A stretch of DNA of 64,000 nt from Nocardioides donggukensis (GTDB taxonomy: Bacteria; Actinomycetota; Actinomycetes; Propionibacteriales; Nocardioidaceae): contig NZ_JACYXZ010000004.1 in the NCBI RefSeq assembly GCF_014842875.1, forward strand, positions 62,001 to 126,000, in the 5' to 3' direction. The notes beneath the pieces were generated by a model. It was given only the letters and a program-made list of their open reading frames with translations, did not search any database and had not been told where the DNA came from. Position numbers and translations under genes: made by a program. This document shows positions 24,613 to 37,878 of this stretch, piece by piece. Position 1 is the first letter of the stretch, and the number at the start of each line of letters is the position of its first letter.

Positions 24613-25428
24613 GTGCGCACTCCTCTCCTCGCCTCCGCCCTGACCACCCTCGCCCTGACCCTCACGGGCTGCGGCGGCGACCCGTTCGCCGACGACGATC
24701 GTGAGCCGGCCGAGGTGCTGGCCGACGCGGTCGACGCCACCCTCGGGGTCGACTCGTTCGTCGTGGACACCAAGGCGGCGCTGACCATCGGCGAGACCGA
24801 CATCAGCCTCACCGCCGCCGGGGCCGTGGACTACGAGGCGCTGGTCGCCGACGCCGGCATCACCGTGCAGCAGGGCGAGGCCGGCGGCGAGATCGAGATC
24901 CGGGCCGACGGCGAGTCGGTGTGGTTCCGCACCGAGGGCGAGCAGGTGCCGGCGATCCCGCAGGGCAAGAGCTGGGTCCAGGGGGAGGCCTCCATCCTGG
25001 ACGGCGCCGCCACGTTCGACCCGGCCGGGCTGGCCGGCGTCGTGATCGCGCTGCGCGCCGCCGAGGACGTCGTGGAGGGAGGGACGAAGGAGATCGACGG
25101 CGTCCAGGCCCGCGAGTTCAGCACCACCGTGACCTACGCCGACGCCGTCGAGGCGGCCGGGGAGGACGCAGGGAAGCTCGAGAGCTCGCTCAGCCTCACC
25201 GGCACCGCCGACCAGGCCGACCTGGTGATCGTGGCCTGGGTGGGCGAGGACGACGTGATCCGCGACTTCGACCTCGACATCGAGGCCGGCGACGTGCCCG
25301 TCGACGGCACCTACACCGTGGACGTCTCCGGCGTCGACGAGGACGTCGAGGCGCCGGAAGCCCCCGCCGAGGAGGACGTCCTCACCGGGGCCGAGGCCGA
25401 CGCCTTCCTCTCCTCGGTCGTCCAGTAG
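24613..25428 (+). CDS. LppX/LprG-like lipoprotein
   Basis: A lipobox LTGC lies at residues 17-20 after a short signal ([20 protein letters not shown]). The 250-residue mature part is acidic and shows the LppX_LprAFG fold pattern: [21 protein letters not shown], then [17 protein letters not shown]. In mycobacteria this family binds lipids at the outer face of the membrane. GTG at 24613 starts 9 nt after the fahA stop, but the link to tyrosine catabolism is probably positional. Confidence 0.82.
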
Positions 25429-25446
25429 CCCGCTGTCGCCGGGTCG

Positions 25447-27074
25447 TCAGGCGTCGTCGAGGCCGAGCCGCTCGACGGTCGAGGCGCGCATCTCGACTTG
25501 CGCACCTTGCCGGTGACGGTCATCGGGAACTCCTCGACCAGCACGACGTAGCGCGGGATCTTGTAGTGCGCGAGCCTCCCCGCGCAGAAGGCGCGCACGG
25601 CGTCCGCGTCCAGCGGCTCTGCGCCCTCCCGCAGCTGCAGCCAGGCGCACAGCTCCTCGCCGTACTTCTCGTCGGGGACGCCGATGACCTGGGCGTCGAG
25701 GACGTCCGGGTGGGTGTAGAGGAACTCCTCGATCTCGCGGGGGTAGATGTTCTCCCCGCCGCGGATCACCATGTCCTTGATCCGGCCGGTGATCGAGACG
25801 AACCCCTCCTCGTCCATGACCGCGATGTCGCCGGTGTGCATCCACCCGTCGACCAGCACCTCGGCGGTCTTCTCCGGCTCCTCCCAGTAGCCGAGCATCA
25901 CGGAGTAGCCCCTGGTGCAGAACTCGCCCGCCTCGCCGCGCGGCAGGGTCTCGCCGGTGGCGGGGTCCACGACCTTGACCTCCAGGTGCGGGCCGACCCG
26001 GCCGACGGTCCCCACCTTCGCCTCGAACGGGTCCCCCGGGGCGGTCTGGGTCGAGACCGGGGAGGTCTCGGTCATCCCGTAGCAGATCGCCATGTCGGTG
26101 ATCCCGGCGTCGAGCACCTTGCGCATCATCTCCGCCGGGCAGGGCGATCCGGCCATGATCCCCGTGCGCAGGTGGGAGATGTCGTACGACGCGAACTCGG
26201 GCAGCGACCACATCGCGATGAACATCGTCGGCACGCCGTACAGGCTCGTGCACTGCTCCTGCTGCACCGCCTCCAGCGTCAGCGCGGGGTCGAAGCCGGG
26301 GGCCGGGATCACCGTGCAGGCGCCGTGCGTGGTGGCCGCCAGGTTGCCCATCACCATGCCGAAGCAGTGGTAGAAGGGCACCGGGATGCAGATCCGGTCC
26401 TCCTCGGTGTAGCCGCAGCCCTCGCCGACGAACCAGCCGTTGTTGAGGATGTTGCGGTGGCTCAGCGTGGCGCCCTTCGGGAAGCCCGTCGTGCCGGAGG
26501 TGTACTGGATGTTGATCGGGTCCTCCGGCCGCAGGCCGCCCTGCACCTGCGCCAGCCGGTCCGCGCCCACCTCCGAGGAGCGGGTCATCAGCTCGGACCA
26601 GCTGCGCTGCCCGAACACCACGACGCTGGTCAGGTCCGGGCACTCGTCGCGGACCTCGGCGAGCATCGCCGGGTAGTCGCTGGTCTTGAACGACTCGGCC
26701 ACCAGCATCATCGAGATGCCGGCCTGGTTCACGACGTAGGCGACCTCGTGGGTGCGGTAGGCGGGGTTGACGTTGACGAGGATCGCCCCGACCTTCGCCG
26801 TGGCGTACTGCACCAGGGTCCACTCGGCCCGGTTCGGGGACCAGATGCCCACCCGGTCGCCCTGGGAGACCCCGTGCGCGAGCAGCGCGCGGGCCAGCCG
26901 GTCCACGTCGGAGACCAGCTCGGCATAGGTCCACCGGGTCCCGGCCTGGACGTCCACGACCGCCTCCCGGTCGGGGAACCGGGCCGCCGTGGCGTCGAGG
27001 TTGTCCCCGATGGTCTGCTCGATGAGCGGGGTGCCGGTCTCCCCGACGGTGTGACTCGGCGCTGGTGTCGACAT
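25447..27074 (-). CDS. Fatty-acyl-CoA ligase (AMP-binding), C-terminal frameshift
   Basis: Activates fatty acids to acyl-CoA by way of an acyl-adenylate. The 540-residue frame shows the P-loop [16 protein letters not shown], the motif [13 protein letters not shown], the hinge [42 protein letters not shown], and the catalytic Lys in TVTGKVRK. Directly after this Lys the frame changes. The expected ending [16 protein letters not shown] is in the next frame and stops at 25447, whereas the literal frame runs on to 25311 and into the lipoprotein gene. One C missing at about 25497 explains it. The enzyme may still work, as only the tail is affected. Confidence 0.85.
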
Positions 27075-27129
27075 GGGTCGACCCTGCCACCCGGGCCCGG
27101 TCCGGGGAAGTGCGGCCCGGCCCGACGTG

Positions 27130-27163
27130 CGACGAGCGGCCACCCGGGGGTGGCCGCTCGTCG
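27130..27163 (-). terminator. Ancestral tRNA-Tyr terminator stranded outside the island
   Basis: A perfect 15-bp stem (CGACGAGCGGCCACC / GGTGGCCGCTCGTCG, 4-nt loop) lies 4 nt beyond the duplicated tRNA-Tyr 3' end. Its place relative to the tRNA fragment is that of a native tRNA terminator, so it probably followed the intact gene before the island was inserted. Confidence 0.7.
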
Positions 27164-27166
27164 GCG

Positions 27167-27221
27167 GTGGCAGGTGAAGGATTCGAACCTTCGAAGCTCT
27201 CGCGACGGATCTACGGTCCGC
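27167..27221 (-). repeat. attR-like duplicate of the tRNA-Tyr 3' half
   Basis: It contains the anticodon GTA, variable arm, T-arm (GAAGGTTCGAATCCTTC) and acceptor 3' strand with the discriminator, but no 5' half. Three substitutions separate it from the copy at 36007-36061, two of them in the anticodon loop. It cannot make a functional tRNA. Confidence 0.88.
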
Positions 27222-27457
27222 ACGGGGTGACCATCCTGACCTGAGCTGATTGAGCGCGTCTTCAAGCTTCAGCACGAGTTCGACACGGACGCTCGCGGCG
27301 GTCGACTGCTGACCTGGTACGGCCCGGCCATGCTCGAAGCCCACCGGCAGCTCACCACGGCACCGGCGTGCCCGGGACGAGGAGGGCTGCCCTGGCCACC
27401 ACAGCCGACAGCTCGTCGGCCGGATGACCGAAACAGCACTCCCCGCCGACGAACAGG
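27222..27457. other. Island left end with possible gene remnant
   Basis: From about 27240 the plus strand has an uninterrupted frame reading [20 protein letters not shown] and [19 protein letters not shown] before compositional decay. It has no start codon. This may be the remains of an island gene; I do not recognise the family. No promoter or tRNA is seen. Confidence 0.4.
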
Positions 27458-28351
27458 TCAGGACATGCCGCCCCGAGCGCCGCCGCTGACGGGAATGACC
27501 TGACCGGTCACGTAGTTCGAGAGCGGTGAAACGAGCCAGAAGATCGCGTCGGCGGCCTCCTGGATGGTGCCGGTACGGCCGAGCGCTGTCCCTGGGGTCT
27601 TGCGCGGCGCGTACAGGTCGCGATCCTCGTCGGGGTCGAAGCCCATCGCCTGAAGGGTCTTGTCGGGCACGCCGAGCGGGACCTCGCGACCTCCGACGGT
27701 AATGGACTGCTGTGCCGACTGCGGGGCGCCGAAGCGGGTCTGGATGATCCCGAAGGAGACCGCATTGACGTTGACGTTCGCCGAGCCCCACTCCGCTGCC
27801 AGCGTCTTGGTCAGTCCGATCAGGCCGCCCTTGGCAGCCGCGTAGTTCGCAGCTCCGGGGTTGCCGAAGCTGGCAGCCAGCGAGCTGACCATCACGACCT
27901 TGCGGTGGCGTACCAGGCCCTCCCGGGCCTCACGTCGACCGGCGTCTCGGAGGTACGGCGCGGCGGCCCGACAGATCCGGAAGGGAGCCAAGAGGTGGAT
28001 GTCCAGCATTGCCTGGAACTGCTCGTCGCTCATCGCATGCACGGGCGCGTCCCAGAAGTAGCCGGCGCCGTTGACGATGATGTCGATGCCGTTGCCGGCC
28101 GCCGCCACATCCGCGATGAGGCGGTCCGGAACCTCCGGATCGGTGAGGTCGGCAGCGAAGGCCGTGGCCCCGCCTCCGATGTCCGAGGCGACCTCGTGGG
28201 CCAGGTCCCCATCGAGGTCCACCACCACGACCCGGGCACCGTTGGCAGCCAGAAGCTCGCAGGTAGCGCGCCCGATGCCGTTGCCACCGCCGGTGACGAC
28301 GGCCGTCTGACCCTCAAGGAGCGAGCTGGAGATGGTGGGTGTCGTAAGCAT
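27458..28351 (-). CDS. Short-chain dehydrogenase/reductase, island copy 1
   Basis: A 297-residue classical SDR. The NAD-binding motif is [16 protein letters not shown] (about 24-39), the adenine-binding Asp is in VVVDLDG, and NGAG is present. Catalytic Ser is in [13 protein letters not shown] and Tyr/Lys in YAAAKGGL. An insert of about 40 residues ([20 protein letters not shown]) before the C-terminal [20 protein letters not shown] is typical of large beta-oxidation SDRs acting on bulky acyl-CoA. It probably oxidises the 3-hydroxyacyl-CoA together with, or instead of, the neighbouring SDR. It lies 83 nt after that gene in the same transcript. Confidence 0.88.
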
Positions 28352-28434
28352 GTCTTTTACCTTCCGTTGGGAATCGAGTGCAGCGTCGGCGTCCCGTGGT
28401 CGTCCGGGTGAACGCCCAGACCGCGCCGACGAGA

Positions 28435-29229
28435 TCACATGGTGAGCGAGTAGCCACCGTTCACCGGGATCGTCTGGCCGGTGATCCAGCTCGAGGCGTC
28501 CGAGGCCAGGAAGAGGATGAGGTTCGCCGCGTCGTCAGGCTCACCGAAACGACGAACGATGTAGGAGGAGAGCACCCGCTTGGCGAACTCCTCGTCGGCG
28601 ATGGCCGCCTCGATCGCCGGAGTGCGCGTTGCGCCGAGTGCCACGCAGTTCGCCGTCACTCCGAAGCGCCCACCCAGGCGAGCCATCGCTCGGGTGAAGC
28701 CTGCTGCCCCGGCCTTGGCACCCGAGTAGACCTCCATCCCGTTGACCTCACCGACGCGCCCGGCGTCGGAGATGATCGTGATGACACGCCCTTGCTTCGC
28801 CTCGACCATGTGACCCATGGCGTGCCGGGTTGAGTTGAGGACTCCGTCCAGGTTGACGTGGATGAAGGGTTCCCAGTCCGACGGGGTCTGATCCCAGAAA
28901 GCACGTTGCTTGGTGGGCGCCGGCCCGGCCCCCCGGTTGCCCGCGTTGTTGACCAGGATCGTGACCGAGCCCCACTTCTCCTTGACCTCGTCGAACACCT
29001 CACCCATCCGCTGGAAGTCACCTACGTCGCTCTGCGCGGCGAGGCTCGACACCCCGAGCTTGCGGACCTCTGCGGCCACACTCTCGGCCCGGGTCTCGTC
29101 GTAGTCGTTCACGACGACGTCCGCCCCGAACGACGCGAGCGTCAGCGCGATCTGACGACCCACGCCCTGACCCGCCCCAGTCACCAGCGCGACGCGACCG
29201 GTCAGGTCCAGCAGGTCGTTCGAGGTCAT
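28435..29229 (-). CDS. Short-chain dehydrogenase/reductase, island copy 2
   Basis: 264 residues. Cofactor loop TGAGQGVGRQIALTLA, Asp-containing VVVNDYDETRAE, NNAGNRG, catalytic Ser in ITIISDAGRVGEVNG, Tyr-x3-Lys in VYSGAKAGAAG, and the usual ending ASSWITGQTIPVNGGYSLTM. It is a 3-hydroxyacyl-CoA or alcohol dehydrogenase candidate. GAAAGG lies 8 nt before the ATG. It heads a two-SDR operon with its own promoter and TetR operator about 85-115 nt upstream. Confidence 0.88.
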   Translation of the reverse strand: MTSNDLLDLTGRVALVTGAGQGVGRQIALTLASFGADVVVNDYDETRAESVAAEVRKLGVSSLAAQSDVGDFQRMGEVFDEVKEKWGSVTILVNNAGNRGAGPAPTKQRAFWDQTPSDWEPFIHVNLDGVLNSTRHAMGHMVEAKQGRVITIISDAGRVGEVNGMEVYSGAKAGAAGFTRAMARLGGRFGVTANCVALGATRTPAIEAAIADEEFAKRVLSSYIVRRFGEPDDAANLILFLASDASSWITGQTIPVNGGYSLTM

Positions 29230-29312
29230 TCGATCGTCCTTTCAAACGCTCTGCCGGTCGTCGGCGTGACCAACGAAGCCCGCAAGTTCTCGCGAGGAGG
29301 AGCTCAGAGCCA

Positions 29313-29343
29313 ACCCTAATGCAGATGCTTGTCAACTGACAAG
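29313..29343 (-). promoter_or_regulatory. Promoter with TetR-type operator, SDR operon
   Basis: CTTGTCAACTGACAAG (29328-29343) is an inverted repeat. On the minus strand TTGTCA (29342-29337) and TAGGGT (29318-29313), 18 bp apart, make a promoter whose -35 and spacer are covered by the palindrome. The same palindrome type recurs at 35333-35348. Confidence 0.75.
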
Positions 29344-29386
29344 TTCTGAGAGGGCTCGTCGATTCCCCGGCGTGCGCCGGCGCGGG

Positions 29387-29992
29387 TCACCGAATGGACA
29401 AGATCCGACGAACGGCCGTCCAGGTCGCCTCGGTGATCTCTTTGCGCTGCACGTCGGGGTCGACGAGCACTTGGAGGAGCACGCCTCTCAGCGTTCCCTC
29501 GATCACGAACGCCGCTTCATCAGGGTTGACGTCCTGGGCCGCGTCTCCGGAATCACGTGCCTCGATGATGGTCTCGACGAGAAGCGTGCGGATCCATCGG
29601 TTGGAGATGGCGACGTCATCCCGCAGGCTGGGGGTCCCGGTCATAGCCTCGACCTGCACCGCGTACAGCGCCCGGGCGTACTTCGAGTAGATGCTTCCCT
29701 CGCGCAGGTAGAGGCGCACGATGGTCTCGAGCTTCTCCACCCCTTCGAGGTCGCCGAAGCTCGCGAGCGCCGCGCGGCTGGAGTCCTGGACGGACTGCAC
29801 GACATCCTTGATGCACTGCTCCTTCGTGCCGAAGTAGTGCGTCACCATCCCACGGCTGAGCCCTGCGAGTTCACCGATGGCGACGAAGCTGGCGGCGGAG
29901 TATCCGCCGGAAGCCAGCAGCTCGACGGTCGCATCGACGAGCTTCTTCCGGGACTCGCTGGACCTCTCGGCCTGAGTACGCCTGCTCTGCAT
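29387..29992 (-). CDS. TetR/AcrR family regulator of the island
   Basis: A 201-residue repressor. The N-terminal HTH reads RKKLVDATVELLASGGYSAA, then IGELAGLSRGMVTHYFGTKE, a standard TetR recognition helix. The C-terminal ligand domain is about 140 residues. It is encoded between the two operons on the same strand, 151 nt after the dehydrogenase. The two near-identical palindromes in the island promoters are its likely sites; an acyl-CoA intermediate is the likely inducer by analogy with FadR/KstR-type TetR proteins. Confidence 0.88.
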   Translation of the reverse strand: MQSRRTQAERSSESRKKLVDATVELLASGGYSAASFVAIGELAGLSRGMVTHYFGTKEQCIKDVVQSVQDSSRAALASFGDLEGVEKLETIVRLYLREGSIYSKYARALYAVQVEAMTGTPSLRDDVAISNRWIRTLLVETIIEARDSGDAAQDVNPDEAAFVIEGTLRGVLLQVLVDPDVQRKEITEATWTAVRRILSIR

Positions 29993-30143
29993 GGTCGAAC
30001 CCTATCCAGCCTCATGCGGCAACCTGGGCGAGCCTCTGCGCCCTACCCACCGGGTGCATAGCTCGATCGCCGCGCGATCTGCCTCTCGTGGATTTCGAGT
30101 CGGACGAGGAGGGGCCGGGCCCCCACCTCGTCCAGCTGCACTC

Positions 30144-31319
30144 CTACCTGGAATTCGCCTCGCGGACCGTACGGCGCGCGATGTCGCGGCCGATGAGGTC
30201 CTTCATGATCTGGTTCGTCCCGCCGTAGATCGGCTGGATCCGAGCATCTGCGTAGGCTCGCGCGATGGGGTACTCCCTCATGTAGCCGTAGCCGCCATGC
30301 AGTTGGAGGCACTTGTCGACCACTCGCTGATGAAGATCGCTGATCCACCACTTCGCCTTGGCGGCGTCGATGGCCGTCAGATTTCCATCGTTCAGCAGGA
30401 GCACCGCCCGGTCGAGCATCGCGGTCGCGGCGTCGATCTCGGTCTCTACCTCTGCCAGGGTGAAACGAGTCGCCTGGAAGTCACCGATCGGTTGCCCGAA
30501 GGCGTCGCGATCGAAGCAGTACCGACGCGCCCACGCGTACGCGGCGGCCGAAGCAGCGACGGAGGTGGCTGCGATCGAGAGACGCTCCAGAGGCAGACGT
30601 TCCATCACGTGGGCAAGTCCGCGTCCCGCGGAGCCGAGCAGATCGGCATCGGTGAGCCGGAGGTCCTCGAAGGAGAGCTCGGCCGTGTCGTTGCCTCGTA
30701 GACCGAGCTTGTCGAGCTTGCGTCCCCGGCTGAATCCCGGACGGTCTGTCGGCACGAGGAAGACGGCGAAGTCGCCGGCGTCGGTCCGCGGATCGACCTT
30801 GGCCAGGACGAGGACGACGTCGGCCAGGAAGCCGTTGGTGATGAACGTCTTGGTGCCGTTCAGGACCCAGCCGTCGCCGTCGCGGCGGGCGGTCGTGCGG
30901 ATACCGCGCAGGTCACTTCCTGCGCCCGGCTCTGTCAGCGCCAGCGACCCGATGGCGGTACCGGCGCACAGCTCGGGCAACCACTCTCGGCGCTGTTCGT
31001 CGGATCCCAGATCGACGACGTAGGGCATGACGAGGTCGTCCTGCACGCTGAGCCCGGCGTTGAAGGAGTTCGCCCCCACGCGGCACAGCTCCTCCATGAT
31101 CACCATCCGGTATCGGAAGTCGGCCACTCCCCCGCCGCCGAGCTCCTCAGGCACGGAGGTCCCGATGATCCCGAGCGAACCCGCCACCTCCCAGGCGGCA
31201 CGGTCGACGAGGCCGTCGTCGTCCCACCGCTCCCATTGGTCGGCGACGACCTTCTCGACGAAGGCCGCGACGGTCGCTCGGAAGTCTTCGTGCTCCTCCT
31301 CGTAGAGGGTGCGTCTCAT
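30144..31319 (-). CDS. Acyl-CoA dehydrogenase
   Basis: An FAD enzyme, 391 residues, introducing the alpha-beta double bond. Signature regions: GSLALTEPGAGSDLRGIRTT (flavin and substrate binding), LNGTKTFITNG, KLGLRGNDTAELSFEDLRL, and HGGYGYMREYPIARAYADAR. The position used as base in medium-chain enzymes is Gly here (IYGGTNQIMK). The Glu in ERLPLERLSIA (about residue 245) matches the base of long-chain and isovaleryl-type enzymes. ATG overlaps the stop of the upstream thiolase-like gene (ATGA). Confidence 0.9.
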   Translation of the reverse strand: MRRTLYEEEHEDFRATVAAFVEKVVADQWERWDDDGLVDRAAWEVAGSLGIIGTSVPEELGGGGVADFRYRMVIMEELCRVGANSFNAGLSVQDDLVMPYVVDLGSDEQRREWLPELCAGTAIGSLALTEPGAGSDLRGIRTTARRDGDGWVLNGTKTFITNGFLADVVLVLAKVDPRTDAGDFAVFLVPTDRPGFSRGRKLDKLGLRGNDTAELSFEDLRLTDADLLGSAGRGLAHVMERLPLERLSIAATSVAASAAAYAWARRYCFDRDAFGQPIGDFQATRFTLAEVETEIDAATAMLDRAVLLLNDGNLTAIDAAKAKWWISDLHQRVVDKCLQLHGGYGYMREYPIARAYADARIQPIYGGTNQIMKDLIGRDIARRTVREANSR

Positions 31320-32473
31320 CGCGGCCCCTCGACGCTTTGCAGGACGTGAACGGCACAGACCGCGCCGAGGCCGACCATGTGGGCCAGCCCCGTTCGCGCA
31401 CCGGCGTGCTGGCGCGCGCCGGCCTCACCTCGGATCTGAGTGGTGATCTCTCCGATCTGGCCCACGCCTGTGGGTCCGATCGGGTGACCTGAACTCAGCA
31501 GGCCGCCTGACGTGCTCACGGCCACTCGTCCACCGAGGGAGAACTCGCCGGCCTCGAGATCGGCCGCAGCCTTGCCCTCCGCGGCCAGACCCATCGCCTC
31601 GACGTACTGCAGCTCCTCGATCGAGAAGGCGTCGTGCAGCTCCACGAGGTCCACGTCGTCGGGGCCCATCCCGGCCTGCTGGTACGCGTCCGCCGTCGCT
31701 GCGCGGGTGAGCTCGGCGTCGAAGCTCTTCGCGCCGTACAGCTCCTCGCTGCGCAGGACAGACGCGAGCACTCGGACACAGCGTGAGCGGTCCAGGCCGA
31801 GCTCGTCGATGGCGTCGTCCGAAACCACGACGACGGCAGCGGCGCCCTCACCGATCGGGCAGCACTGAAGCCTGGTCAGAGGGCCGGCGATGGGTGGTCC
31901 GGCAAGGACCTCCTCCAGGGTTCGTGCCTTCGGCCGCTGGGCGTTGGGGTTCAGTGCTGCGTTGGCGGAGTTCTTCACGGCCACGGCAGCCAGTTGCTCC
32001 GGGGTGGCACCGTGACGCTCCAGGTACTCCGAGGCCAGCAGCGCGAAGTGCGCCGGAGGCGGCACGTAGGCGGCGTCGAGGCTCGGCACTCCCGTGTCAT
32101 TGCTGGCGCCCTGCGCTGTCGGCATCTTGTCGACACCCAGGACCATCGAGATGTCGCTGGTCCCGGCTGCGACGTCGTGGCAAGCCAGTCGGAACGCCGT
32201 GGAGCCCGACGCCGAGGCGTTCTCGACCTGCAGCATGGGGATGCCGGTGACGCCGAGATGCTTGTACAGCGGTCGGGAGGCGGCCATCCCGAGCATGGCC
32301 GTGCCTGTGTAGGCGCTGTCGACGTCGGCCCACCGCAGGCCGGCGTCGTCGAGTGCCTGGCGCACGGCCGTCAGGCCCAGCTGGACGTAGGGCGTGGCGC
32401 TCGGCTTCTGGAACGGGTGCCAGCCGACGCCGGCGACGTAGACGGGGCGCTGTTGCGCAAGCGTGATCTTCAC
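31316..32473 (-). CDS. SCP2-thiolase-like protein with Ser in place of the nucleophilic Cys
   Basis: A 385-residue member of the lipid-transfer/SCP-x thiolase group (starts VYVAGVGWHPFQKPS after a GTG). The segment that holds the acyl-accepting Cys in thiolases (NNCATGSTA in human SCP2) reads ENASASGSTAF, so the Cys is Ser. His of SSGHPIGPTGVGQ and a Cys in MVGLGAVCAVHVL remain. Without the Cys normal thiolysis is doubtful; Ltp2-type proteins of steroid side-chain degradation are known to act as retro-aldolases with a DUF35 partner. GTGA overlap joins it to the OB-fold gene upstream. Confidence 0.88.
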   Translation of the reverse strand: MKITLAQQRPVYVAGVGWHPFQKPSATPYVQLGLTAVRQALDDAGLRWADVDSAYTGTAMLGMAASRPLYKHLGVTGIPMLQVENASASGSTAFRLACHDVAAGTSDISMVLGVDKMPTAQGASNDTGVPSLDAAYVPPPAHFALLASEYLERHGATPEQLAAVAVKNSANAALNPNAQRPKARTLEEVLAGPPIAGPLTRLQCCPIGEGAAAVVVVSDDAIDELGLDRSRCVRVLASVLRSEELYGAKSFDAELTRAATADAYQQAGMGPDDVDLVELHDAFSIEELQYVEAMGLAAEGKAAADLEAGEFSLGGRVAVSTSGGLLSSGHPIGPTGVGQIGEITTQIRGEAGARQHAGARTGLAHMVGLGAVCAVHVLQSVEGPR

Positions 32474-32874
32474 GTGACGACCTCTTCGGGAGTGAATCGG
32501 AGCTCGGCGACCTCGACGTCGTCGCGGGTGACCGGCACGGTGACGGCGCGGACACGGGAGCCGATGGTGACGTCCGGCGCGTCCACCAGCACCGACCGGA
32601 TCATTGGGCCCTCGTCGAGGACCACGGACGCCAAGCGGTAGGGGAACCCCAGGGCCGGGTCGACCGGTATGTGGACATCCACGACGGCCGAGACGGTCCC
32701 GGTGCCGGCGAGCGGGACCGGGGAGATCTTCTCCCCGACGTCGCCATTGTGCTCGGATCCGTAGATCTGGAACGGGAAGGAGACGGATCCGCTGGAATCC
32801 TTCAGGCCGATCAGCGTGGGCTCTCCCGACTCGTCGACCTGGTAGAGATCGGGCTGGGCCGACGGCGCGCTCAT
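32470..32874 (-). CDS. DUF35-type OB-fold protein lacking the zinc ribbon cysteines
   Basis: A 134-residue partner of the thiolase-like protein. The C-terminal half is an OB-fold (TGTVSAVVDVHIPVDPALGF, YRLASVVLDEGPMIRSVLVD, IGSRVRAVTVPVT). DUF35 proteins usually carry four Cys in an N-terminal zinc ribbon. Here the equivalent region (LIGLKDSSGSVSFPFQIYGS) has none, and no Cys occurs in the whole protein. ATG at 32874 overlaps the CoA-ligase stop by 4 nt; a start at 32976 would lie deep inside that gene. Confidence 0.85.
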   Translation of the reverse strand: MSAPSAQPDLYQVDESGEPTLIGLKDSSGSVSFPFQIYGSEHNGDVGEKISPVPLAGTGTVSAVVDVHIPVDPALGFPYRLASVVLDEGPMIRSVLVDAPDVTIGSRVRAVTVPVTRDDVEVAELRFTPEEVVT

Positions 32875-34415
32875 GCCTTCGCGTCCTCGACGTAGGAACG
32901 ACGGAGGACGCGCTTCAAGGTCTTGCCCATCGAGTTGGTCGGGATCTCCTCGATGAACTCGAAGGACCGCGGCCACTTGTACTTGGCGAGCTTGCCTTCG
33001 AAGAACGCGTAGAGCTCGTCCGCAGTCAGCACCGCCCCCGGAACGGTCTGGACGAACGCCAGGGGTTGCTCACCGTGGTCCTCGTCGGGGACACCGATCA
33101 CGGCCACGTTCGCGACGAGCGGGTGTGTCGCGATGACCGCTTCGCTCTCAGCGGGGTAGACGTTCACGCCACCCGCGATGATCATGTCGGTGATCCGGTC
33201 GTAGATGAACAGCACCCCCTCGTCGTCGACGTGCCCGACGTCGCCCGTCGAGTAGAAGCCGTCCTCGCTGATCTTGTCGGCGCCGAGCGGACCGCGACCG
33301 ATGTAGCCGCTGATGATGTTGGGCGTCCGCACGGTGATCTCGCCGGTCGCGCCCGTCGGAACCTCGTTGCCGCTCTCGTCGACGATCCGTAGGTCGACGT
33401 GACGGAACGGGAACCCGGTCGCGTTCGGCTTGCGCGACAGAAGGTCGGGAGTTGCGCCCGCGATCATGCCCGTCTCCGTCGCACCGTAGATCTCGTAGAT
33501 GACCGGACCGAAGAGGTCGGTGGCAGCGGACTTGAGCTCCTGGCTGAACGGCGCTGCGCCACCCATCAGGAAGCGGAGGCTGGAGATGTCGTACCTGTCG
33601 CGGACCTCGGGAGAGAGCTTGAGGATCCGCTGGAGCATCGTGGGAACGGCGACCCAGTGCGTGATCCCGTGACGCTCGATGAGTCGAAGCACGTCCTCGG
33701 CATCGAAGCGTCGCTGGAAGACGACAGTGCCGCCGGTCTGGAGCGCGAACTGCGTGTACGACGGGCCCGCACCGTGGTGCATCGGCAGGTTGATCAGTGT
33801 CGTGTTGCCGGGTCCGCCCGCGGCCATGTCGAACAGCACCGACAGCATGTAGTCGAGACGCACGGCGTCGTCCACCTGGGTCTGGAGGCCGCCCAAGGGG
33901 GCGCCCTTGGGGGCTCCCGTCGTGCCGGAGGAGTAGATGATCAGTGGCGCCAGGGCCGGCGAGGGACGGTCCTCGGGCTCGCCCTCCGCGATGAGGTCCG
34001 CCATGAGCTCAACACCCGGAGCCGGGGTGTCCATCGAGACAATCACCCTCAACCCGAGTTCTTCCCAAGCCGCGACCAGGTCGGACGGGTCCTCGTCATC
34101 GACGATCGCGGCTGTGACCTCGCAGTCGCGGGCGATGTAGAGCGACTCGGGGGGCGAGAGTCGGTAGTTCACCGCGACGATGACCGACTTGAGCTTGGCG
34201 ACGGCGAGGGAGACGACCATCCACTCCAGTCGTGTGTGCGAGCGGACGGCGACACGGTCGCCTTCCTTCACACCTCGGCGCGCAAGCGACGAGGCCAAGC
34301 GATCAGCTTGCTCGTTCCAGGACCTCCACGTGAGGGTGCGCTCACCTTCGGTGGCGCAGACTGCGTCGAGGTCGTCGGGAGGCGCGAAGGCGGGGGAAGG
34401 GGTCAGTTGCTTCAT
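32871..34415 (-). CDS. Acyl-CoA ligase (AMP-binding), island copy
   Basis: 514 residues that activate the carboxylic acid entering the island pathway. P-loop IIYSSGTTGAPKGAPLGG, motif IYGATETGMIAGAT, hinge region GFYSTGDVGHVDDEGVLF, GGVNVYPAESEAVIATH, and catalytic Lys in IPTNSMGKTLKRVLR. Compared with the frameshifted ligase at 25447-27074 it is only distantly similar, so it is not a duplicate. It is followed by the OB-fold gene with an ATGA overlap, and is 78 nt from enoyl-CoA hydratase. Confidence 0.9.
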   Translation of the reverse strand: MKQLTPSPAFAPPDDLDAVCATEGERTLTWRSWNEQADRLASSLARRGVKEGDRVAVRSHTRLEWMVVSLAVAKLKSVIVAVNYRLSPPESLYIARDCEVTAAIVDDEDPSDLVAAWEELGLRVIVSMDTPAPGVELMADLIAEGEPEDRPSPALAPLIIYSSGTTGAPKGAPLGGLQTQVDDAVRLDYMLSVLFDMAAGGPGNTTLINLPMHHGAGPSYTQFALQTGGTVVFQRRFDAEDVLRLIERHGITHWVAVPTMLQRILKLSPEVRDRYDISSLRFLMGGAAPFSQELKSAATDLFGPVIYEIYGATETGMIAGATPDLLSRKPNATGFPFRHVDLRIVDESGNEVPTGATGEITVRTPNIISGYIGRGPLGADKISEDGFYSTGDVGHVDDEGVLFIYDRITDMIIAGGVNVYPAESEAVIATHPLVANVAVIGVPDEDHGEQPLAFVQTVPGAVLTADELYAFFEGKLAKYKWPRSFEFIEEIPTNSMGKTLKRVLRRSYVEDAKA

Positions 34416-34493
34416 CAGGTTCTCCTGTTGCGTCGGTGGCCAGCGCGGGCTGCGAGGGCCCTTCTGTCGGACAGGGTCGTGACGTTCATCAGC

Positions 34494-35276
34494 TCAGCGG
34501 CCCTTCCACTGCGGTTCGCGCTTCTCAATGAAGGCGCGGATGCCTTCCTGGGTGTCATCTGACTCGATCGCAGGGCGCGCGAACTCCATCTGCTTCGCCC
34601 AGGCTTCCTCGTCGGTCCACTCGTAGCTGCGACGAACGATCGCCTTGCTCGCGGAGACTGCGAGGGGACCTGACTTCACGATGTCCGCAGCGAGCTCGAG
34701 CGCCGCTTCAACGGCTTGTCCGGCCGGCACGACCCGGTTGACGAATCCCATCCGGTGAAACTCTTCCGCCGGGAGCGACTTTCCGGTGAGCGCCAGCTCC
34801 ATGGCGATGTTGTAAGGGATGCGCTTGGGAAGACGGAACAGTCCCCCGCCCATCGCAACCAGAGCACGCGCAGCTTCGGGGATGCCCATCCGGGTGGCGT
34901 CTGTGGCGACCACCAGGTCGCAGGCGAGACAGAGCTCGAGGCCGCCTGCAAGGGCGTCGCCCTCGACTGCCGCGATCAGGGGCTTCTCGGGCGGGACAGC
35001 CATCACCCCGAACCCGCCACGACGTTCGCTGGCGCCCATGTCTCCCACCGCGGCAGCCTTCAGATCCTGACCGGCGCTGAAAGTCGGCCCAGCGCCGGTG
35101 AGGACGGCCACCCGCAGCTCGTCATCAGCCTCGTACTCGTCGATCGCCGCCTCGAGTGCCCGCGCCGTGGCACCGTCGAACGCGTTGCGACGCTCGGGTC
35201 GGTCGATGGTGATCAACAGAGCTTGCCCGTTCAGTCGGCGCTCGGTCTTCACGACCCCACTGACAGTTTCCGACAT
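34494..35276 (-). CDS. Enoyl-CoA hydratase/isomerase
   Basis: A crotonase-fold protein of 260 residues that hydrates the enoyl-CoA. ITIDRPERRNAFDGATARAL starts the fold. The oxyanion-hole segments are AGPTFSAGQDLKAA and VEGDALAGGLELCLACDLVV. The usual second catalytic Glu region reads PEAARALVAMGGGLFRLPKR, with Glu retained in GIPEAARA. The C-terminus (PQWKGR) is normal. ATG at 35276 is preceded by GAGGGGG. First gene of the main island operon, 57 nt downstream of a TetR operator. Confidence 0.9.
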   Translation of the reverse strand: MSETVSGVVKTERRLNGQALLITIDRPERRNAFDGATARALEAAIDEYEADDELRVAVLTGAGPTFSAGQDLKAAAVGDMGASERRGGFGVMAVPPEKPLIAAVEGDALAGGLELCLACDLVVATDATRMGIPEAARALVAMGGGLFRLPKRIPYNIAMELALTGKSLPAEEFHRMGFVNRVVPAGQAVEAALELAADIVKSGPLAVSASKAIVRRSYEWTDEEAWAKQMEFARPAIESDDTQEGIRAFIEKREPQWKGR

Positions 35277-35322
35277 GGGATGCCCCCTCAGGACAGGACT
35301 TCGAAGTGATGGCGGTGACCAC

Positions 35323-35351
35323 ATCGTATGCACTTGTTAGATGACAAGCAA
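35323..35351 (-). promoter_or_regulatory. Promoter with TetR-type operator, main island operon
   Basis: On the minus strand TTGCTT (35351-35346) and TACGAT (35328-35323) are 17 bp apart. The palindrome CTTGTTAGATGACAAG (35333-35348) fills the spacer and touches the -35. It shares 13 of 16 bases with the operator at 29328-29343. It would block RNA polymerase directly. Confidence 0.75.
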
Positions 35352-35493
35352 GCATAAGCCTCGACCCAACCGGAGCACCCAAAGAACCCACCAGAGAATG
35401 ACGAACCCCGGCGCTGGCGCCGCCTGGACCGACGCGGCGACCACCGGCGAGGTCCGCGGTCCCATCTCGAGCCGTTCCCGGGCCGGAGCTCAA

Positions 35494-35821
35494 GGTCACC
35501 TCTTCGCCGCCCGCACCCGGCGCGCCGGAAAGCCGATCTCACCGCCCTACAACTCCCTGGTCAGCGCGAAGACCATCTACCGGGTGTGGGCGCAGCCCGG
35601 CGCACGGCGCTGACCCCACAGCAACCGACTCCGTGCTCGCCCGACGCCCCTACGACCTGCGTCACGCCTGCCTCTCGACCTGGCTCAACGCCGGAGTGCC
35701 TCCGGCCCGCGTCGCTGAATGGGCCGGTCACGGCGTCGACGTACTGCTCCGGATCTACGCCGACTGCGTCGAGGGAGACGACCAGATCGCGCTCAGCCGC
35801 ATCGGCGAGGCACTCTCGTGA
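35494..35821 (+). pseudogene. Tyrosine integrase remnant
   Basis: Three frames together give the C-terminal catalytic part of a phage-type integrase. Piece 1 is GHLFAARTRRAGKPISPPYN to TIYRVWAQ. Piece 2 is ARRTALTPQQ, in a second frame. Piece 3 is VLARRPYDLRHACLSTWLNA then GVPPARVAEWAGHGVDVLLR, ending IYADCVEGD, in a third frame. The R..H box (DLRH), GH and the catalytic Tyr (RIYA) are present, but the N-terminal half and the first catalytic Arg are missing and two frameshifts separate the pieces. It points toward tRNA-Tyr, 187 nt away. Confidence 0.8.
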
Positions 35822-35956
35822 GCCTGGTGACGCGCCCGACGACTGACCACCTCACTGGAGGTCGCCGAGCCGCCGACCGGCCAAGACTTCCGCAGGTGTT
35901 CCGCAAAGACAGCCGCAATCGGCCGCCATCGACCACTGACGGCCGGACAGGTTGCA

Positions 35957-35996
35957 AAGGGCCCCTGGCCAACGTCTCCGCTGGTCAGGGGCCCTT
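35957..35996. terminator. Hairpin downstream of tRNA-Tyr and the integrase remnant
   Basis: AAGGGCCCCTGGCCA pairs with TGGTCAGGGGCCCTT (one G-T pair, 10-nt loop). It begins 11 nt after the tRNA-Tyr 3' end on the minus strand and follows the integrase on the plus strand. No long T run. It is probably the replacement terminator brought by the island. Confidence 0.6.
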
Positions 35997-36007
35997 GTGA
36001 CCCACTG

Positions 36008-36088
36008 TGGCAGGTGAAGGATTCGAACCTTCGAAGCTTTCGCGACGGATTTACAGTCCGCTCCCATTGGCCGCTCGGGCAACCTGCC
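36008..36088 (-). tRNA. tRNA-Tyr (anticodon GTA), integration site of the island
   Basis: An 81-nt class II tRNA. Acceptor GGCAGGT/ACCTGCC, anticodon GTA in CTGTAAA, long variable arm, T-arm GAAGGTTCGAATCCTTC, discriminator A. The 3' half up to the anticodon stem (36007-36061) is duplicated at 27167-27221, marking the attachment core. Confidence 0.96.
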
Positions 36089-36201
36089 GGGTGTGCCACC
36101 CCGGACTTGGCGGGGCAACAGCAAGGCGAAACAATAGCGCAGCCGCACGGACTCGTAAAAATGCCCGCCCGTGTCCACGGGTGGCAAGGAGGAGCACAGA
36201 C

Positions 36202-36693
36202 ATGGCCGACTCGTCGTTCGACATCGTGAGCAAGATCGACCGCCAGGAGGTCGACAACGCCCTCGGGCAGGCCGCCCGGGAGATCGCCACCCGCTACGAC
36301 TTCAAGGGCACCGGTGCCAGCATCGAGTGGCAGGGCGAGGAGGCCATCGAGATCACCGCCTCGGCCGACGACCGGGCCACCGCCGTCCTCGACGTGTTCA
36401 AGGGCAAGCTGGTCAAGCGCAACCAGTCGCTGAAGATCCTCGACGCCGGCGAGCCGCGCCAGTCCGGACAGGTCAGCAAGATCGGGATCGCCCTCAAGGA
36501 GGGGATCAGCTCCGAGGACGCCAAGAAGATCACCAAGCTGATCCGCGACGAGGGCCCCAAGGGCGTCAAGGCGCAGATCCAGGGCGACGAGCTGCGGGTG
36601 TCATCGAAGAAGCGCGACGACCTCCAGGCCGTCCAGGCGCTGGTCAAGGAGCAGGACTACGACTTCGCGGTGCAGTTCACGAACTACCGCTGA
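36202..36693 (+). CDS. YajQ family cyclic-di-GMP-binding protein
   Basis: 163 residues, starting [20 protein letters not shown], the conserved opening of the family. The two RRM-like folds include [15 protein letters not shown] and [20 protein letters not shown]. It ends [10 protein letters not shown] as is typical. AAGGAGGAGC lies ahead of the ATG. YajQ proteins bind nucleotides, and a Xanthomonas homologue binds cyclic di-GMP. The actinobacterial role is unclear. Monocistronic, divergent from tRNA-Tyr. Confidence 0.94.
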
Positions 36694-36831
36694 GCCACGC
36701 TCGGCGCCCCGGCGAGGACCACCCGCGGCCTCGGCGCTCTCCGGCTCTTGTGGTGGGGGGCGGCTGTTGGTAGACCGGTGACAGGAGGCACCACCCGTCA
36801 TCGGGGATGCCGAGTCTCGGAGGAGTTCCTG

Positions 36832-37878
36832 ATGCGACGTCGATCCACAAAGCTCGTCGGTGCCCTGGGGGTCGCGGCCCTCTCCCTGTCCACGTTCTTC
36901 GCGCCGGCCAGCGCCGATCCGCCGCACAATCCCGGCGGTCCGTGCCTGCAGGAGAACCAGAACGTCTCCTTGGCCAGCGTGGCCAACTACGCGGACGTCG
37001 TGCGTGAGCTCGGACGCATCGAGCGCAGCAGTCAGGGCGCCGTCGAGGTGCACAGCGCCGGTCAGTCCGGCGAGGGACGCCAGCTGCTCTACGCCACGGT
37101 CGGCCACGGCCCCGAGACGTTCTGGCTGCAGGCCCGCATCCACGGCAACGAGCTGCACAGCACGGAGGCGGCGCTGCAGATCCTCGACCGCCTCGCGTCG
37201 GGGAGCCCGGCCGCGAAGGCCGTCCGCGAAGGCCTGACCGTCGTCGTCGTTCCCATGTACAACCCCGACGGCGCCGAGGCGAACATCCGGCAGAGCACGA
37301 CACCCAACCGGATCGACCTCAACCGGGACTGGGAGAACTTCGCCCAGCCGGAGTCGGTCGCGTTCTGGAAGGTCTGGCGCTCCACCGCCCCCACCTACGC
37401 CCTGGACATGCACCACATGAGCCAGGCTCCGGTCGTGCTCGGGACCGACGACCTCAACCAGTTCCAGATCGGCGGCCGCTCCATCGCGCCGTCCCGGATG
37501 ACCGATCGGCAGTGGCTCACCAACCGCCAGATGACCATGGCCAGCGTGGAGGCGCTGGAGGGCTACGGAGTCGCGAACGTCGCGCACTACCCCCTGATCG
37601 ACATCACCAACGCGGTGCTCTCCCGGATGCTGATGGGCGAGACCGCCCCGCCCGGGGAGACCCCCCTGCCGCAGTCGGCGACGCCCACCCAGGGCGCCAT
37701 CTTCTACGAGGTCCGCTCGGTGGGGCAGAAGAGCAACGGGCAGCTGGAGAACCTGTTCCGGATCCCGGCCATGGCCGTCCTCACCGCCGCCGCGGACGGC
37801 TCGCTCGCGGAGCAGGACGTCAGCGGGTACGACGCCCTGCCGTTCGCCCGCTCGGGACCCTGCGGCCAGACCGGCTGA
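36832..37878 (+). CDS. Secreted M14-family zinc carboxypeptidase
   Basis: A signal peptide (MRRRSTKLVGALGVAALSLS to APASA, about residues 1-28) is followed by the M14 catalytic domain. Zinc ligands: HGNE in ARIHGNELHSTEA and the His of YALDMHHMSQ. The substrate-binding NRDW is in RIDLNRDWENF. The likely catalytic Glu lies in GAIFYEVRS. At 348 residues it is compact, without extra binding domains. CGGAGGAG stands ahead of ATG at 36832. It probably trims peptides outside the cell. Confidence 0.88.
   Translation: MRRRSTKLVGALGVAALSLSTFFAPASADPPHNPGGPCLQENQNVSLASVANYADVVRELGRIERSSQGAVEVHSAGQSGEGRQLLYATVGHGPETFWLQARIHGNELHSTEAALQILDRLASGSPAAKAVREGLTVVVVPMYNPDGAEANIRQSTTPNRIDLNRDWENFAQPESVAFWKVWRSTAPTYALDMHHMSQAPVVLGTDDLNQFQIGGRSIAPSRMTDRQWLTNRQMTMASVEALEGYGVANVAHYPLIDITNAVLSRMLMGETAPPGETPLPQSATPTQGAIFYEVRSVGQKSNGQLENLFRIPAMAVLTAAADGSLAEQDVSGYDALPFARSGPCGQTG

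Follow-up and report, generated by a model that had tools for sequence, protein, structure and literature searches.

A thiolase-like protein with serine at the nucleophile position and a cysteine-free DUF35 partner in Nocardioides donggukensis

The thiolase-like protein and its serine

Analysis of a 64,000-nucleotide stretch of Nocardioides donggukensis DNA (contig NZ_JACYXZ010000004.1, positions 62,001 to 126,000; this whole stretch is called the window below, and its own numbering is used) indicated that the minus strand carries a gene for a thiolase-like protein, P0001, together with a gene for a DUF35 protein, P0002. The initial annotation of the locus, made from the sequence alone, had proposed that the nucleophilic cysteine of the first protein was replaced by serine and that the second had lost its zinc-ribbon cysteines, and both claims were borne out by alignment. 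The pair comprises the following features.

31316..32473, minus strand: Ser-type thiolase-like protein P0001, 385 amino acids, GTG start; Pfam Thiolase_C_1, Thiolase_N and Thiolase_C above cut-off; best PDB matches SCP2-thiolase and BbsB
32213..32215, minus strand: codon TCG of Ser87, aligned at the thiolase nucleophile position
31634..31636, minus strand: His280 of HDAF (equivalent to the Tyr of YDHF in Ltp2)
31484..31486, minus strand: His330 of GHP (equivalent to the Tyr of GEAYIHG in Ltp2)
32470..32874, minus strand: DUF35/OB_ChsH2_C protein P0002, 134 amino acids without cysteine, overlapping the start of the thiolase gene

P0001 has the thiolase fold in addition to the Thiolase_N and Thiolase_C_1 matches listed. 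Its nucleophile loop is QVENASASGSTAF, with the core VENASASGSTA, and the motifs HDAF and GHPIG follow further on. Ser87 aligned on the nucleophilic cysteine of SCP2-thiolase 6hsj (NVNNNCSTGSTAL) and of BbsB 7pxp (NVQSACSAGAMAV), and the C-x-S/C-x-G loop cysteine of SCP2/BbsB-type thiolases is absent while the HD(C/A)F and GHP motifs of these enzymes are present. A different cysteine aligned at the nucleophile position was looked for and none was found. The five cysteines of P0001 (98, 204, 205, 232 and 373) sit away from it, and neither Cys98, found in 65 of 84 Ser-clade rows, nor Cys204, found also in 29 of 30 cysteine-keeping relatives, qualifies as a substitute.

The second cysteine of the SCP2 motif HDCF, on which the initial annotation was silent, is also gone from P0001 (HDAF; Ala282). 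Since alanine occupies this position in 12 of the 30 cysteine-keeping relatives and in BbsB as well, the serine is the sole change among the catalytic positions compared that separates the clade: all 84 clade rows carry Ser, versus Cys in all 30 thiolase-like relatives. The other active-site positions compared are conserved, as His280, Asp281, Phe283, Gly329, His330, Pro331 and His365 are each found in 84 of 84 rows. Asp115, Glu286, Pro334 and Gly338 are further positions fixed in the clade, and Tyr150 and Tyr290 are each found in 83 rows.

Relatives were sought in a genome collection with the patterns HDAF[STA]IEE and GEAG[AD]RQH, neither of which includes the serine position. The scan gave at least 147 relatives, found among 591 stretches, and in the best 80 of the 147, which were kept for examination, the nucleophile position was Ser in every case. 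The kept loci came from Actinomycetota, Pseudomonadota, Myxococcota, Binatota, Acidobacteriota and Chloroflexota and from a metagenome-assembled genome (MAG) of Desulfovibrionaceae; many of these loci are from MAGs. Because all 80 carry Ser, and because the orthologue in genome G151 of the same genus (82% identity) shows both the Ser87 change and a cysteine-free DUF35 protein, Ser87 is not a chance or sequencing slip.

A protein query of two genome samples (E ≤1e-76) gave 26 new loci, in which identities of at least 55% went with Ser (19/19) and identities of at most 44% with Cys (7/7). Among 48 loci, repeats of earlier ones included, all 30 at or above 50% identity carried Ser, and those below comprised 16 with Cys and two with Ser (L127 and L128). 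The Ser type is uncommon. In the phylum sample (396 genomes, E 1e-75) five genomes had it, that of the window itself and those of the divergent L127 and L128 among them; the Pseudomonadota sample gave 4 of 398 genomes, counting the chosen centre, and the family of that centre 14 of 299. All five plasmid loci examined were of the Ser type.

A tree of 126 rows, constructed by a quick method without bootstrap and with Sal not among the rows, placed the 84 close Ser rows in a single clade supported at 100 in the Shimodaira-Hasegawa-like approximate likelihood ratio test (SH-aLRT). L127 and L128 (about 45% identity to P0001; motif HVENASATGS) had long branches and grouped next to two Cys rows, a placement consistent with either one or two origins of the serine; they may represent a separate Ser lineage or one that diverged early, and their adjoining DUF35 proteins also lack the four-Cys ribbon. 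An open-literature search of titles and abstract openings found no description of the Ser-type clade. The records of four plasmids label proteins in which the serine was checked as 'thiolase family protein'; the plasmid loci offer an operon context but none comes with a tested substrate, and L137 has no annotation.

The DUF35 partner and its zinc ribbon

P0002 was assigned to DUF35/OB_ChsH2_C by its PF01796 score (34.3 bits, cut-off 27.1) and the OB fold of its model, and it is the sole PF01796 match in the host genome at E 0.001. The four-Cys (or Cys3His) zinc ribbon is absent from it: at the ligand positions of zinc-keeping relatives it has a gap, Ser, Ser and Asn. The model (mean predicted local distance difference test score 94.1) had BbsA as its best fold match (Z 14.1), though the underlying alignment consists mostly of zinc-keeping relatives and biases the model toward that shape. 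According to PMC12329534, DUF35 homologues, with BbsA aligned among them, bind zinc by four cysteines, in contrast to the cysteine-free P0002.

The pairing itself is nearly constant. In 77 of 79 distinct Ser-type loci the thiolase gene is immediately preceded by a DUF35 gene in the same orientation, with an estimated gap of at most 150 bp in 76 loci and of 167 bp in L113. In L073 (2165-3976) the DUF35 part, its zinc cysteines kept, and a Ser-type thiolase share one open reading frame on one MAG contig, which is possibly a natural fusion or an assembly error in a low-coverage MAG; in L053 the thiolase starts at contig base 144.

When CxC and CxxC spacings were treated alike, 74 of the 78 DUF35 partners (found in 78 of the 79 loci) carried four cysteines in ribbon spacing. 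The four exceptions were L039 from Williamsia, which has no cysteine, L118 from Falsiroseomonas, L107, in which one ligand is missing, and L077, truncated where its contig stops. A coupling of the serine change to the loss of the zinc ligands was considered; with four cysteines kept in so many partners of Ser-type proteins, it was rejected. The Ser-type pair of G007, a genome of the same genus, also retains the zinc ribbon. The window, G151 and Williamsia L039, which all have cysteine-free DUF35 proteins, formed one small clade in the tree (SH-aLRT 100). The zinc loss is separate from, and later than, the serine change. Zinc-ligand loss was also seen outside this clade, in L135 (Roseomonas mucosa plasmid p1-AD2) and L118. 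Between the window and G151 the DUF35 gene evolves faster, with a ratio of nonsynonymous to synonymous substitution (dN/dS) of about 0.52 versus about 0.16 for the thiolase gene, which indicates purifying selection on the latter; both values are rough because synonymous sites are near saturation.

Gene context and known systems

The neighbouring genes, all on the minus strand, are as follows.

30144..31319: acyl-CoA dehydrogenase (ACAD), overlapping the thiolase stop; adjoins the pair in G151 too (77% identity)
32871..34415: AMP-binding acyl-CoA ligase, overlapping the DUF35 start; kept in G151 (75%)
34494..35276: enoyl-CoA hydratase (ECH) family protein, just upstream of the overlapping genes; kept in G151 (80%)
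29387..29992: TetR-family regulator, downstream of the ACAD gene
28435..29229: short-chain dehydrogenase/reductase (SDR) with the S[DE]A[AG]R motif, from a subfamily found repeatedly around Ser-type thiolase genes, assigned by motif and profile comparison
27458..28345 (start not fixed): second SDR, with an orthologue within the G151 cluster (78%)
25311..27074 (25311..27090 for the apparently frameshifted region): second AMP-binding ligase, its two parts in two frames

The ligase, DUF35, thiolase-like and ACAD genes overlap one another by a few bases. The second ligase, which presumably belongs to the same pathway, shows an apparent frameshift near its 3' end, and a usual-looking terminus runs on in another frame. 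The ACAD reads YGGTNQ where many relatives have YEGT, so its catalytic base should lie elsewhere, presumably as in long-chain acyl-CoA dehydrogenase types. A tRNA scan of 25000-37000 gave a tRNA-Tyr at 36007 as its sole match.

Neighbour categories were obtained by clustering open frames, by which genes without relatives in other loci may be missed. Within 6 kb of the thiolase the 79 loci showed SDR (44), ECH (36), AMP-ligase (34), type III CoA-transferase (26) and ACAD (19); where 6 kb were available on both sides (50 loci; many other stretches are shorter on one side) the counts were SDR 34, ECH 29 and ligase 28. The SDR motif S[DE]A[AG]R...YxxxK was found in the window, in the fetched stretches of 37 of 79 loci, in 30 of the 52 stretches of at least 15 kb and in three of five plasmid loci, but in none of the four Cys-type loci L035-L038. 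The best PDB rows for a profile of this subfamily were a (3R)-hydroxyacyl-CoA dehydrogenase (2et6), FabGs and, fifth, BbsD (7pcs). BadH matched all 26 members scanned, but FabG models matched as widely and the window SDR is nearer to FabG (196.8 bits) than to BadH (148.6), so that the substrate class suggested by the SDR is a weak inference; it fits oxidation of a beta-hydroxyacyl-CoA and hence a beta-keto substrate. The set of ligase or CoA-transferase, ACAD, ECH, SDR, DUF35 and thiolase genes resembles the bbs operon, by which toluene is degraded anaerobically and which likewise has ACAD, ECH and SDR genes.

SCP2-thiolase type 1 (6hsj, 6hrv), which is not known to have a DUF35 partner, was the best match to P0001 in sequence and fold; it differs in its Cys nucleophile and the Cys of HDCF. 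BbsAB (7pxp) was a close second by fold and the best match for P0002, and it shares the thiolase and DUF35 pairing, HDAF without the second cysteine, and GHP, the difference being Cys in BbsB at the position of Ser87. Fold comparison of the P0001 model gave Z values of 54.4 for SCP2-thiolase, 53.7 for BbsB, at most 46.4 for PhlC, 43.9 for Ltp2 and 43.1 for Sal, and profile searches gave the same order (298.5, 289.9, 110.6 and 104.7 bits for SCP2-thiolase, BbsB, Ltp2 and Sal). The BbsB equivalog model NF053628 matched all 47 members of set A2 at ≤1e-20; P0001, the only one whose score was set against the curated cut-off of 750 there, reached 231.3 bits, and the Comamonas protein L133 221 bits.

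Ltp2-ChsH2 (6ok1) and Sal-Shy (9myr) share with the window pair the thiolase fold, the DUF35 partner and the missing nucleophile cysteine. By alignment and according to PMC12329534 they have Gly instead of Ser at the nucleophile position and YDHF or YDCY instead of HDAF, and Ltp2 reads GEAYIHG where P0001 has GHP. In the same paper, catalysis by Ltp2 of T. curvata uses Tyr294 and Tyr344, 50 residues apart, and Sal requires Tyr302 and Cys304 of YDCY. The Ltp2 pair aligned with His280 and His330 of P0001, and the spacing is also 50 residues in L119, which is the Ltp2 of a congener (596 bits to 6ok1_A; Gly at the nucleophile position, YDHF, GEAYIHG). The histidine of HPIG, which the initial annotation had named as a difference from Ltp2, is indeed kept as His330. 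Six Ltp2 rows (L119-L124; L119 confirmed) formed a separate clade (SH-aLRT 100) with P0001 outside it. An Ltp2 steroid pathway was rejected for the host: at E 1e-60 its genome gave no match to the Ltp2 model NF005892, which is matched in 79 of the 118 genomes of the genus, with 68 scoring above cut-off.

PhlC of the Friedel-Crafts acylase PhlABC is likewise a thiolase fold with a DUF35 protein (PhlB); it differs by an essential Cys88 (PMC6392133, PMC12955522) and a third subunit. A natural loss of the nucleophile cysteine within the superfamily is known from the M. smegmatis thiolase-like protein MsTLP1 (PMC3406046), which has Gly there, is a monomer with an extra domain and shows no thiolase activity. 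The ibuprofen system IpfDE, as described in PMC9195938, may be a further relative.

Proposed reaction and alternatives

The reading that we favour, and to which we give about an even chance, is that P0001 and P0002 together form a retro-Claisen enzyme like SCP2-thiolase and BbsB, dependent on DUF35, with Ser87 instead of Cys acting as the covalent nucleophile. We infer an active enzyme that becomes acylated on Ser87 and takes a beta-ketoacyl-CoA as its substrate. The ligase would activate an acid to its acyl-CoA, ACAD and ECH would dehydrogenate and hydrate it, and the SDR would oxidise the beta-hydroxyl, the resulting beta-ketoacyl-CoA being passed to the pair. His330 and His280 would then set up Ser87 for attack on the beta-carbonyl with release of an acyl-CoA, and the remaining acyl group would move from the serine ester to CoA or to water. 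P0002 would have a structural role, giving the substrate site its form, and in the window it would do this without zinc. In favour of this reading stand the fixed serine in an otherwise conserved active site, the closeness to SCP2-thiolase and BbsB in fold and profile searches, the recurring SDR, ECH and ligase neighbours and the purifying selection on the thiolase gene. There are precedents for serine carrying an acyl group, namely FabD-type transacylases and the ketosynthase III-like DpsC.

Several points weigh against this reading. The strongest is that the engineered C88S change abolishes PhlC activity (PMC6392133, PMC12955522), so that serine is no simple stand-in for cysteine; the clade-fixed Asp115, Glu286, Pro334 and Gly338 might compensate for this, or might signal another reaction. 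In the open-literature search no activity of any Ser-clade member was found. The SDR motif is absent from the fetched stretch of 42 of the 79 loci and from that of L033 and L034 of the same genus, which have SDRs of another type, and twelve PhyH-like loci lack SDR, ECH and ligase genes in the 6 kb around the thiolase and instead show ALDH (aldehyde dehydrogenase), ACAD-like and PhyH-like genes in a row on the other strand. These loci (L085, L088, L090, L093, L096, L098, L100-L102, L105, L106 and L108) are of the Acidimicrobiia/Microthrix type, and the row is conserved among them.

The initial annotation had left a choice between an aldolase and an unusual acyltransferase. The latter is the likelier of the two, and an Ltp2-like aldolase was not supported, since both Ltp2 tyrosines are His in P0001. 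A retro-aldolase that would cleave a beta-hydroxyacyl-CoA non-covalently to an aldehyde or ketone and an acyl-CoA, with His280/His330 (or Tyr150, Tyr290 or Glu286) as acid/base and Ser87 as a mere hydrogen-bond donor, is unlikely, even though PMC12329534 describes Ltp2 and Sal as just such thiolase-fold enzymes with DUF35 partners and no nucleophile cysteine, and both tyrosines are nearly invariant in the clade. The catalytic Tyr of YDxF/Y is replaced by His280, His330 stands at Ltp2 Tyr344, and Ala282 at the Sal position Cys304, so that the known aldolase machinery is absent; Ltp2 and Sal also carry Gly instead of Ser, and tree and fold group the Ser clade with thiolases. In favour of a retro-aldolase, 18 of 79 loci have an ALDH gene within 6 kb, which in L059 directly follows the thiolase gene on the same strand, but 13 of the 18 belong to a single group whose ALDH gene has the opposite orientation (the twelve PhyH-like loci and L091, where the contig ends). 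If the SDR acts on the beta-hydroxyl, it would moreover take away the group on which an aldolase depends, and a dehydrogenase yielding a beta-ketone would argue for the retro-Claisen over the retro-aldol step.

Hydrolysis of the serine ester, instead of its transfer to CoA, would make the protein a beta-ketoacyl-CoA hydrolase or ring-opening enzyme, the role that BadI fills with another fold on 2-oxocyclohexanecarboxyl-CoA. By general chemistry, acyl transfer from an ester is less natural when the acceptor is a thiol than when it is water, six other Thiolase_N proteins above 150 bits in the host genome could serve ordinary thiolysis, and BadH is the second-best NCBIfam match of the SDR neighbour of L133 and the best one of that of L135. 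The BadH similarity was, however, below the family cut-off of 431.2 bits in every case read (148.6, 199.0 and 201.4), and the sequence gives no sign of a water site; we regard this alternative as distinctly unlikely. Very unlikely, in our view, is a biosynthetic acyltransferase or condensing enzyme of the PhlC or DpsC kind, or a decarboxylase, in which Ser87 would carry an acyl group from CoA to a non-CoA acceptor: PhlABC and MucABC, thiolase-fold acyltransferases with DUF35 partners, do stand in the fold list (Z 44.7-46.4), but the nearby ligase, ACAD, ECH, SDR, CoA-transferase and tripartite tricarboxylate transporter genes point to catabolism, and no PhlA-like third subunit was noticed, no search having been aimed at one. 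The loss of both cysteines used by SCP2-thiolases would suit a non-catalytic pseudo-thiolase kept as a scaffold; the invariant His280, His330 and His365 across several phyla and the low dN/dS of the thiolase gene make this highly improbable.

Beyond the Ser-nucleophile retro-Claisen reading, we propose tentatively, as a possibility still well short of even, that a true-thiolase lineage exchanged its thiol for a serine hydroxyl and with it redirected the acyl group to water or to some acceptor other than CoA, giving a DUF35-dependent Ser enzyme that cleaves beta-ketoacyl-CoA across several phyla, with zinc-free DUF35 offshoots. The Ser-for-Cys exchange is fixed in a whole family spanning several bacterial phyla, and its members are likely to be misannotated. 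The pair lends itself to experiment by its small size, and with a zinc-free DUF35 protein the purpose of the zinc ribbon can be examined. Comamonas sp. C11 (L133) carries on a 19.9 kb mobilizable plasmid a compact set of IclR, DUF35, Ser-thiolase, ECH, SDR and flavin reductase genes with ligase and transporter genes, a convenient unit for substrate screening. With its kept histidine motifs and constant partner, the Ser clade provides a test made by nature of whether this chemistry really requires sulphur.

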